Source: Flavobacteriia bacterium (GTDB lineage: Bacteria; Bacteroidota; Bacteroidia; Flavobacteriales; Weeksellaceae). Taken from it: a stretch of DNA of 64,000 nucleotides. This document shows positions 6,258 to 22,159 of the stretch, one piece after another. Numbering within the stretch: position 1 is the first letter of the stretch; each line of letters starts with the position of its first letter. The stretch is from contig JACFND010000005.1 of NCBI GenBank assembly GCA_019455045.1, forward strand, positions 7,966 through 71,965, written 5' to 3'. The notes under the pieces are model-generated. The model was not told the origin of the DNA. It ran no database searches and worked only from the letters and a program-made list of their open reading frames with translations. The position numbers and the translations under genes are program-made.

Positions 6258-7331
6258 TTATCCGAATTTCTGTTCAAAAGCTTTCATCACATCAACCAGC
6301 ACCTGAACGCTTTCGATCGGTAAAGCATTGTACATGCTTGCACGGTATCCGCCAACGATTCTGTGGCCTTTCAGATTGACGATTCCGGCTTCTTTCCACA
6401 TTTTGTCAAATTCATCTTTCAGACTTTCATCATTCAATACAAAGGTTGCATTCATATCCGAACGGTCCTCAACCGCAACCGGTCCTCTGAACATTCCGTT
6501 TCTGTCGATTTCGGAATACATCAGTTCTGATTTTGCTTTGTTTCGTTTTGAAATTTCAGGAATTCCGCCGATGCTTTTCAGCCATTCCAGATTGCACATT
6601 GCACCGTAGATCGCCATGACGGACCAGGTGTTGAATGCACTTTCTTTGTCAATATGCACCTGATAATTCAGATAGGTCGGAATGTCTCTTCCGGTTTTGC
6701 CCAGAACTTCTTTTTTGATGATGGTCACCGCATTTCCGGCAGGGCCCATATTTTTTTGTGCTCCGCCGTAAATCACAGCAAACTTTGAAATATCGACCGG
6801 TTTGCTCATGATGTCAGATGACATATCGCAGACAATCGGAATCGGACTGTTCGGAAAAGATTTCATCTGGGTTCCGGCTACCGTATTGTTTGAAGTGCAG
6901 TGAAAATAATCTGCATCTGCAGGAATATTGTAATTTTTTGGAATATAGCTGTATTTTTTGTCGGCAGAAGATGCAACCACATCAACGAGTCCGAGTCTTT
7001 TGCCTTCTTCTATCGCTTTTGTTGCCCACACGCCGGTATCGAGATAAGCTGCTTTACCGCCGTTTAATTTCATCATATTGAAAGGCACCATCACAAACTG
7101 AAGCGAAGCGCCCCCCTGGGTGAAGATCACCTCGTGGGTATCGGGCACATTCAGCAGTTCTTTGGTCAGCTGAATGGTGTTGTGCATCACCTCTTCAGCA
7201 TCGGGCCGACGGTGCGAAATTTCCATGAGTGACAGACCTGAATTGTTGAAATTTAAAACGGCCTGAGCCATTCTGTCAAAAACTTCCTGTGGAAGGATGC
7301 AGGGACCTGCGCTGAAATTATGGATTTTCAT
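6258..7331 (-). CDS. serC: Phosphoserine aminotransferase
   Basis: A 357-aa class-V fold aminotransferase. The N-terminal HNFSAGPCILP, the substrate motif SHRRPDAEE, TQGGASLQF, and the PLP-lysine segment YGGAQKNMGPAG (Lys193) are typical of SerC. It converts 3-phosphohydroxypyruvate plus glutamate to phosphoserine. It is the upstream partner of serA. A -7 element TAACTTTG lies on the minus strand at 7387-7394, which would place the transcript start about 50 bases upstream of the ATG. Length and motifs are normal for the family. Confidence 0.96.
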   Translation of the reverse strand: MKIHNFSAGPCILPQEVFDRMAQAVLNFNNSGLSLMEISHRRPDAEEVMHNTIQLTKELLNVPDTHEVIFTQGGASLQFVMVPFNMMKLNGGKAAYLDTGVWATKAIEEGKRLGLVDVVASSADKKYSYIPKNYNIPADADYFHCTSNNTVAGTQMKSFPNSPIPIVCDMSSDIMSKPVDISKFAVIYGGAQKNMGPAGNAVTIIKKEVLGKTGRDIPTYLNYQVHIDKESAFNTWSVMAIYGAMCNLEWLKSIGGIPEISKRNKAKSELMYSEIDRNGMFRGPVAVEDRSDMNATFVLNDESLKDEFDKMWKEAGIVNLKGHRIVGGYRASMYNALPIESVQVLVDVMKAFEQKFG

Positions 7332-7427
7332 ATAGTAGTGTTTAAGATTATCGGATTGTATAAAAAATAACTTTCAAAATCTGGTGCAAAGTTAATTATT
7401 TCATTTGGGTATCAGTAAAATAATCAA

Positions 7428-9133: not shown

Positions 9134-9153
9134 AATAGGGCAAATGCCCTATT
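9134..9153. promoter_or_regulatory. Palindromic operator-like site AATAGGG-N6-CCCTATT
   Basis: A near-perfect 20-bp palindrome whose last bases touch the TTG (9152-9154) of a candidate promoter with a 20-base spacer and -7 box CAACTTTG at 9175-9182. The position right at the -33 element suits a regulator-binding site. Related but less symmetric sequences occur at 21304-21326 and 45242-45260. Confidence 0.45.
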
Positions 9154-9187
9154 GCACAATATTCGCAATTCAGTCAACTTTGTATCA

Positions 9188-10060
<873 letters not shown>

Positions 10061-20393: not shown

Positions 20394-20888
20394 ATGAAAA
20401 AACTTTTGTTATCAGCTGTTATTGCCGTATTCGGCCTGACAGGATTAAAGGCTCAATCAACCGGATTTGAAGCCGGTGCATTCATCGGATTCCCGATTGG
20501 TGATGCAGGCGATTTTACCAGTATCAATTTTGGTATCAATGCAGCTTACTATTGGACAGTTGCTGAGAATTTCCAAGCTGGTCTTTCTGCAGGTTACGAC
20601 CATTGGACCGCTAAGGAATTCGATACAGGAATGGGAAAAATTAAAGGAGATGACCTTGGATTTATTCCGATTGCAGCGACTGCAAAATACGATTTTGGCG
20701 GATTCTTCGGAGGTCTTGATCTGGGTTACGCTATTTATGCCGGAAGCGGCGGAGGTGACGGTGGTTTCTACTACAGACCAAGAGTTGGATGGAACAACAC
20801 TTCGTTCAATGTTTACGGTTTCTACAAAGGAATCAGCAATGACGGATCAATTTCTTCACTGGGTCTTGGATTTGACTACAAATTCTAA
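20394..20888 (+). CDS. Small outer-membrane beta-barrel protein
   Basis: 164 aa with a signal peptide (MKKLLLSAVIAVFGLTGLKAQ) cleaved near residue 21. The mature part alternates hydrophobic and polar residues with many glycines and aromatic residues (INAAYYWTV, LSAGYDHW, KYDFGGFFGGLDLGYAI) and ends LGLGFDYKF, with a terminal phenylalanine typical of outer-membrane barrels. An eight-stranded OmpX/OprF-like barrel is likely. It has a strong consensus promoter and its own terminator, so it is an independent and probably well-expressed gene. Ligand or function unknown. Confidence 0.85.
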   Translation: MKKLLLSAVIAVFGLTGLKAQSTGFEAGAFIGFPIGDAGDFTSINFGINAAYYWTVAENFQAGLSAGYDHWTAKEFDTGMGKIKGDDLGFIPIAATAKYDFGGFFGGLDLGYAIYAGSGGGDGGFYYRPRVGWNNTSFNVYGFYKGISNDGSISSLGLGFDYKF

Positions 20889-20912
20889 AAGGAATCCTTT
20901 TTTAAATAATAT

Positions 20913-20943
20913 GAAGCCGGTCTTTTATGATCGGCTTTTTTTG
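20913..20943 (+). terminator. Terminator of the beta-barrel gene
   Basis: AAGCCGGTC (20914-20922) pairs with GATCGGCTT (20929-20937), followed by a run of T to about 20943. Confidence 0.85.
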
Positions 20944-20946
20944 TCC

Positions 20947-20989
20947 AAAAAAAATTAAAATCCTTTGACAGGACGCCAAAGGATTTTAA
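20947..20989 (-). terminator. Minus-strand intrinsic terminator of an unassigned transcript
   Basis: A perfect 13-bp stem (20955-20967 with 20977-20989), 9-base loop, and eight T on the minus strand (20947-20954). No annotated minus-strand gene ends here: the nearest one already has a terminator at 21362-21385. Confidence 0.8.
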
Positions 20990-21258
20990 TGCAGAGGGAA
21001 TAATAAAAAGGGACTTAAGATCTGGTTAGGTTGGTTGGACCTGTTTGGTTTAATCGGGTTAGTCGCTTGGTTGGTTGGGCTTTGGTTTTGGGTTGGTTTG
21101 ATTTGGTTTAAATTGGTTTGGTTTGATTTAGTTTGGTTTTTCAGTTTAAGTCTCTCAGGAAATTCCGTTTTTCTAAAAGTTTTTCATTTTTCTCGATCGG
21201 CATTTTCATTTGCCGCCTGTCAGTCGGTTAAATAGTGTTTCAAATTTCTATTGCAAAG
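20947..21258 (-). ncRNA. Candidate AACC-repeat small RNA
   Basis: The minus-strand sequence is strongly G-poor over about 120 bases, built of AACCAAACC-like units, then ends in the perfect terminator at 20947-20989. Upstream on the same strand is a TTG at 21294-21296, a 21-base spacer and AATATTTG at 21265-21272, which would place the start near 21258. The 5' boundary is uncertain. The opposite strand gives a Trp-rich 66-codon frame that looks like a by-product of the repeats. Confidence 0.45.
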
Positions 21259-21303
21259 ATTCAACAAATATTCAGATCAAAACAGAGGAATAGCAACCAA
21301 ATT

Positions 21304-21326
21304 GAAAGGGGAAAATCACCCTATTT
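21304..21326. promoter_or_regulatory. Imperfect palindrome upstream of candidate ncRNA
   Basis: On the minus strand the site reads AAATAGGGTGATTTTCCCCTTTC, whose left half AATAGGG equals that of the site at 9134-9153. It lies just upstream of the proposed -33 element of the minus-strand ncRNA. Confidence 0.35.
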
Positions 21327-21361
21327 GAATCTGAGGAGAATCAGCAGTCAGGCACAAAAAA

Positions 21362-21385
21362 AAAGACCGCCATAAGACGGTCTTT
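21362..21385 (-). terminator. Terminator of the T9SS protein gene
   Basis: AAAGACCG (21362-21369) pairs with CGGTCTTT (21378-21385); on the minus strand a run of about ten T follows (21355-21364). Confidence 0.85.
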
Positions 21386-21406
21386 ACAATTAAAAGTTAA
21401 TCTGAA

Positions 21407-22159
21407 TTATTTAACCAAAACTCTGATACTGTGACTCACACCTGATACGCCTTTGAACGCCACCCAGTAGGTTCCGGCTGACAGTCCGTTCAAATCAAGC
21501 TGAGATTGTCCTTTGTTCATGCTGAGGTTTTTTACAACTCTGCCTTCAAGATTCAGAATCTGAACACTTGCATCTTCTTTGAGATTCACATTGGTAAATC
21601 CTTTGGCAACCGTAGGATATACTTCTGCGATTGATCTTGACTGGACATCGTTTACACCCATTCCGTCCTCATCATACAGATAAGTAAAGGTGAAGTCAGT
21701 TCCTTCAATCTCATTTCCTGCACCGTCTGTCTGAGCCATTCTTACGGTATATTGTGCAAGATTGGTGTCATCAAGATTGATGAAGTAATCAAACAAACCC
21801 CAATTTGAATTTGCATACATGATTCCTCCTTCGGTTACCGGATAGAACGATTCTGTGTTCAGCGGGAAGAAACAGTTTCCTGAAGGCCCGCCTATACAGA
21901 ACTGCGCCAGCGAACCGTCGGTATTCACCATTTCAACCACCTGACCTCTGATATAGATGTCATGAGAGGTTTCATTGGTTATAAACAAATGGAGTTTTGC
22001 CTCTTCAAGGGGATCTGCAAAGGTTCCGTGAACATTAAAAACAAAAGTGGTATTGTTTTCATACTCATGATCTTCAAGATCAGCTACTCTGTACTCTCTC
22101 TGTGCAAATACCGTAACTGCAAACAGGGTAAATACTGCGCTTAAAAATATTTTTTTCAT
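21407..22159 (-). CDS. T9SS-sorted secreted protein of unknown function
   Basis: 250 aa with a signal peptide (MKKIFLSAVFTLFAVTVFAQ) and a C-terminal type A T9SS sorting domain from about residue 185 (VYPTVAKGFTNVNL, NLEGRVVKNLS, GLSAGTYWVAF, ending RVLVK). The central part, about residues 25-175, has a beta-rich look with SHDIYIRG and GNCFFPLNT and no domain I recognise. It should pass the outer membrane and be attached or released at the surface. It starts eight bases after the Omp28 gene's stop, so the two are likely co-transcribed. Confidence 0.85.
   Translation of the reverse strand: MKKIFLSAVFTLFAVTVFAQREYRVADLEDHEYENNTTFVFNVHGTFADPLEEAKLHLFITNETSHDIYIRGQVVEMVNTDGSLAQFCIGGPSGNCFFPLNTESFYPVTEGGIMYANSNWGLFDYFINLDDTNLAQYTVRMAQTDGAGNEIEGTDFTFTYLYDEDGMGVNDVQSRSIAEVYPTVAKGFTNVNLKEDASVQILNLEGRVVKNLSMNKGQSQLDLNGLSAGTYWVAFKGVSGVSHSIRVLVK

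Follow-up and report, generated by a model that had tools for sequence, protein, structure and literature searches.

A degenerate AAACC-type array ahead of an orphan terminator in a convergent-gene spacer of a Weeksellaceae genome

Introduction

Does a G-poor repeat body that runs into a strong terminator mark a small RNA gene, or can the same arrangement belong to a spacer between convergent genes? The question is raised by a locus of about 300 nt on the minus strand of a 64-kb stretch of DNA (the whole stretch analyzed, hereafter the window) from a member of the Weeksellaceae, which an initial annotation had presented as a candidate small RNA with a promoter, a repeat body, and a terminator of its own. 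The host genome is a 2.6-Mb draft in 108 contigs. Our sample of it comprises 461,117 bases, window included (the 461-kb sample), and comparisons extend to genomes of the same genus, family, and class.

Results

The locus places a repeat array between two minus-strand terminators. Along the minus strand, the Por_Secre_tail gene and its terminator come first. Plain spacer (~100 nt) and then unremarkable sequence (~110 nt) lead to the array; beyond it lie a pyrimidine-rich stretch, the second hairpin, which runs into eight T, and finally the convergent plus-strand gene at its 3′ end. The features are as follows.

21407-22159, minus: upstream gene, whose product carries a type IX secretion sorting tail (Pfam Por_Secre_tail)
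21385-21362, minus: terminator of the upstream minus-strand gene
21254..21261, minus: weak candidate -7 box AATCTTTG (score 5.9, no better than chance)
21146..21253, minus: non-repetitive 5′ part of the candidate RNA, containing a 22-codon ATG frame
21021..21145, minus: degenerate AAACC-type array, A+C-rich, G-poor, predicted mostly unpaired
20991..21012, minus: pyrimidine-rich CCCTTTTTATTATTCCCTCTGC stretch ahead of the orphan hairpin, as seen in the sequence
20947..20990, minus: orphan intrinsic terminator (16-pair stem, loop of 5, eight T)
20913-20938, plus: terminator of the convergent gene
20394-20888, plus: convergent gene encoding 164 aa, without a Pfam match at E up to 0.001

The terminator of the neighboring minus-strand gene was found where the initial annotation had put it (21362-21385). 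The translation of the 22-codon minus-strand frame within 21146..21253, when looked at, gave no support for coding.

The second terminator is strong, one-directional, and far from any same-strand gene. The hairpin at 20990-20954 (minus) folds as 16 pairs around a loop of 5, at -18.7 kcal/mol, and leads into eight T; the earlier description of a hairpin with eight T at 20947-20989 thus stands, with its stem lengthened from the 13 bp claimed to 16. By eye, 14 of the pairs are consecutive Watson-Crick pairs. On the plus strand no T run follows the arm, so the hairpin would act in one direction. Terminator-like sites number three in the surrounding 1.2-kb region, against 1.2 expected from shuffles. 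Across the 461-kb sample we counted 66 intergenic terminators using a crude gene caller (greedy longest ORF), leaving out the first 1.5 kb of each strand per stretch and terminators with no upstream ORF; eight further terminators inside ORFs fall outside this count. For most (49) a same-strand stop is no more than 60 nt away, and for 5 it is at 61-150 nt. The orphan terminator, at 417 nt from the nearest same-strand stop, is one of the 12 beyond 150 nt. Among the remaining eleven, two terminate tRNA genes (window 57770; L122), one (L119) belongs, by eye, to a leader that combines short Met/Cys-rich frames with hairpins, and eight are unexplained, where the Rfam search of distant-terminator stretches covered the window, L116, L119, and L122 only. 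When we also require that no opposite ORF be counted between stop and terminator, six of the 66 are left, including the orphan terminator and the two that end tRNA genes.

As an observation apart, the L119 leader (~7018-7400, minus) has its short Met/Cys-rich frames followed by T-run hairpins, an order that resembles transcription attenuation by eye.

So isolated a terminator is unusual for a mere spacer. It favors the main rival to a spacer, an independent small RNA of ~300 nt running from ~21250 to 20947 on the minus strand, whose G-poor AAACC body would stay single-stranded and pair with GGTTT-type stretches or bind a protein. We treat this rival as possible but somewhat doubtful. It is plausible that a noncoding minus-strand transcript ends at 20947.

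The repeat body is extreme in composition for this genome. Within 21062-21147 of the minus strand, 71 of 80 nt are A or C, making it the most A+C-rich 80-nt stretch both of the window (next 59) and of the 461-kb sample (next 62), where the ranking was done with at least 16 C required and also without that filter. It is also the largest C-minus-G stretch of the sample (41 per 150 nt; next 38). Tandem Repeats Finder reports a period of 5 with 14.4 copies (plus-strand unit TTGGT, score 65), and autocorrelation against dinucleotide shuffles is strongest at the same period (z 3.9, followed by 2.9 at 15, 2.3 at 10, and 2.1 at 4). The G-poor repeat body described earlier between the two terminators is therefore confirmed as an AAACC-like, period-5 array. 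The body is predicted to be about 0.7-0.96 unpaired, as a single-stranded small RNA would be, but its fold energy equals that of shuffles (z -0.13, 150 shuffles), so that a selected fold is absent.

This composition also invites a reading in which the array is a Rho utilization site, with Rho and the hairpin jointly stopping minus-strand read-through between the convergent genes. The C-minus-G excess, a best 78-nt C/G ratio of 13, the predicted lack of pairing, and the hairpin downstream all point that way, and such composition together with a downstream hairpin is among the features of a published Rho-site predictor (PMC6407284). However, under the spacing rule (a C every 11-13 nt within 78 nt, six C in our own coding) the longest chain here is five, and the element is not among the 19 sites of the sample that pass the rule. 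A strong intrinsic terminator would moreover make Rho unnecessary, and we consider a Rho site unlikely.

The opposite strand has an open 66-aa frame rich in hydrophobic residues (21035-21235, plus), which would allow a type I toxin-antitoxin pair with the minus-strand RNA as antisense antitoxin. But the start codon of the frame is TTG, the GGTTT repeat accounts for its tryptophans, and upstream of it we find none of the four best plus-strand -7 boxes of 20880-21420, making such a pair scarcely credible.

Promoter evidence ahead of the body does not exceed chance. The initial annotation had assumed a promoter here. The best -7 box in the tested spacer (21212-21361) is AATCTTTG at 21261, scoring 5.9 under a -7 model whose refinement used 213 sites drawn from 284 gene upstream regions. 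Among the 284 upstream regions (200 nt) 68% reach that score; among coding stretches it is 38% at 200 nt and 27% at 150 nt, and 379/500 shuffles of the spacer itself reach it too. A box no better than chance weakens the case for an independent small RNA. The -33 box was not learnable from the host genome. A sigma-70 scan found four sites where 2.8 were expected; the only minus-strand one close to the element is 21435-21406, ahead of the first terminator, and none lies between 21361 and the body. The tested region excludes the box at 21362 (TTTTTTTG, score 7.3), which is the top minus-strand -7 site of 20990-21420 and was set aside as the T run of the first terminator.

Searches for relatives of a small RNA or of its possible partners were likewise negative. 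No Rfam family matched the element at its gathering score, and 27 matches obtained with a loose threshold over 20880-21420 all fall under their gathering scores and were taken as chance. None of six genomes of the genus, two of them no more than 76 and 81% complete, yielded Hfq, which the control search detected in 5 of 14 named genomes; an RRM protein was not found in the host genome (control 2/14, one a Bacteroides). Independent noncoding transcripts are known in Flavobacterium psychrophilum (PMC9723704) and lend a small RNA some general support. One of them, Rfp18, is intergenic in a flavobacterium, as is our element, but is described there as conserved in its genus and strongly folded, whereas the element was neither in the tests made (PMC9723704).

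The likeness to another candidate RNA of the window, at 9.2 kb, extends to layout and not to sequence. The two had been described as equal in layout, which holds as a likeness, but the 9.2-kb candidate is absent from the 39 matches to the element in its own genome at E up to 10. Its -7 box scores 5.2, and beyond its own locus it has only two weak local matches in 40 relatives. At positions 9150-9300 (plus), a 5′ hairpin followed by an AACCC-rich linker and a terminator make up, by eye, a compact candidate RNA. The gene downstream of it looks, from the start of its protein, like pyrH.

Neither the element nor its neighborhood is conserved. For the 354-nt element, a search of 148 family genomes that scored the best four candidates per genome returned short matches only, at most 60 nt outside the host genome. 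At E up to 0.01, matches occur in 52 of the 148 genomes, the host included, and the best outside it (E 2.3e-5) falls in the repeat. Phage records gave no match to the element. The gene neighborhood is not kept in three congeners that have a clear relative of the neighboring gene (59, 59, and 42% identity): behind that gene come a terminator and then a different gene, and by eye such an array is absent. In the nearest relative (G004; 87% identity over 69 residues of the convergent protein), the contig ends inside that gene, so the corresponding spacer cannot be read; on a named contig the convergent protein matches at 86% over residues 7-69. The orphan terminator speaks for the small RNA first proposed; the chance-level -7 box, the lack of a selected fold, the lack of homologues beyond short matches in the family genomes, the changed neighborhood in three congeners, and the failure to detect Hfq or an RRM protein speak against it.

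Short-unit arrays fill other spacers of the same genome. The heptamer TGAAACY (searched as TGAAACN) has 32 overlapping matches at ≤1 mismatch in the host genome (reversed control 0), forming arrays at 15 places apart from the element. Among the 14 of these places that we viewed, one array lies between two tRNA genes and another stands directly ahead of what we take, from its look, to be rplL. Four exact heptamer units were found only in the host genome and in G016 among 100 family genomes, the reversed control giving one match in another genome. L103 6438, which ranks second in C-minus-G excess across the 461-kb sample, is by eye a further degenerate array beyond a gene end. Because short-unit arrays fill other spacers of this genome, a repeat body alone is no sign of a small RNA. 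In kind, the body is one of the short-unit arrays found in spacers of its lineage, and it probably arose by slippage.

Some TGAAACY arrays (L146-L181, a few of these loci from G016) adjoin, by eye, degenerate arrays of the GTCTAAC, TAATTAG, and CATCCGA types.

Decamer arrays in relatives often stand just ahead of start codons. The short matches of the element in relatives led us to a family of decamer arrays, TCAAACNANN. Three exact units gave 142 overlapping matches (reversed control 0), spread over 11 of 146 family genomes and 6 of 33 genera, with three genomes accounting for 121 of the 142. A slightly longer pattern was found in 1 of 395 genomes of a class sample, only three of which belong to the Weeksellaceae. 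Placement was studied in 20 stretches of two genomes chosen around matches, with arrays called at ≥20/21 matches over three units. These stretches hold 32 separate arrays, 26 of which have a same-strand gene downstream. The distance from array end to the next in-frame ATG of the downstream ORF is at most 20 nt for 18 of the 26 and at most 45 nt for 23. Five of the others are antisense to both neighbors, and one faces a convergent gene. Ten of the 32 were flagged as lying inside an ORF because the caller uses the earliest start. By eye, the same genes recur downstream of the arrays across genera; from the starts of their proteins, we take them to be aspS and a phospho-sugar mutase (two genera each) and rpsF (three genomes of one genus).

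Some spacers (L061, L068, L134, and L141) contain two decamer arrays of opposite orientation, which could pair as an RNA hairpin.

Bacteroidetes mRNAs naturally lack Shine-Dalgarno sequences (PMC6847099), and decamer arrays on the coding strand (L060-L089, L123-L142) are therefore candidate leader elements that possibly help ribosomes start.

The element resembles these arrays in part. The common features are a CAAAC core, a G-poor strand, and a 10-nt spacing over part of the body. The exact triple of TCAAACNANN does not occur in the host genome. The best three units of the element match at 19 of 21 positions, a level not attained in any of 3000 dinucleotide shuffles of the body, for a motif that was chosen after the relatives had been seen. 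Four overlapping places in the 461-kb sample score at least 17 of 21, three of them in the element (reversed control 0). For a close variant of TCAAACNANN searched in six genomes of the genus, three of the four host-genome matches lie in the element; the other genomes have 0-2, where the control reached up to 6. Most TCAAACNANN arrays precede start codons (23 of the 32 sampled, within 45 nt), unlike the element, whose array has no sense position ahead of a start codon: the next minus-strand feature is the terminator, followed by a plus-strand gene. That the array is a functional unstructured RNA platform akin to the decamer leader arrays, set free here as a separate minus-strand RNA and titrating whatever protein or ribosome part reads them, seems to us quite improbable.

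A comparable system has been described. The TAACTGA heptamer arrays of Beggiatoaceae, Cyanobacteria, and some Bacteroidetes are likewise direct repeats of a short unit in spacers, patchy across species and without a particular predicted fold, as is the element, and differ from it in their unit; most of those in the Beggiatoaceae genome studied lie a few nt upstream of start codons (PMC4679880). The array of the element instead precedes a terminator, and the minus strand has no gene directly behind it. Our literature search for these arrays, judged mainly by title, turned up the TAACTGA arrays, and a prior description may exist.

Discussion

We give about even credence to the reading that this locus is a noncoding spacer between convergent genes, in which a slippage-born array lies within an unstructured minus-strand RNA that is stopped at the orphan terminator. 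RNA polymerase would arrive from the right, having either read through the first terminator or started at a weak spacer promoter, and the minus-strand RNA formed would be unstructured, C-rich, and G-poor. Polymerase would then be stopped at 20947, ahead of antisense entry into the convergent gene. The array would have been born by replication slippage, like other short-unit arrays in the spacers of this genome, and would itself probably not be the functional part.

For the spacer reading speak the strong one-way terminator, the period-5 array, the heptamer arrays of the host genome, and the decamer arrays of relatives, together with the lack of conservation in 148 genomes, the different spacers of the three congeners, and a fold no better than shuffles. 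Against it stand the distance of the terminator from its nearest stop with no opposite ORF between, and an array that exceeds every other stretch of the sample in A+C by a wide step. The small RNA set out above draws on that same terminator and on the unpaired body, and is weakened by the chance-level -7 box, the lack of homologues beyond short matches in 148 family genomes, and the negative Rfam, fold, Hfq, and RRM results.

The element itself matters little; of greater interest are the leader arrays found in relatives. Repeat-filled gaps of this kind occur elsewhere in the genome and in some relatives, and a G-poor repeat body with a terminator is insufficient for calling a small RNA where some spacers hold short-unit arrays. 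In some genera of the family, decamer arrays often stand a few nt ahead of the start codons of apparent housekeeping genes, where they may be leader elements for the start of translation.
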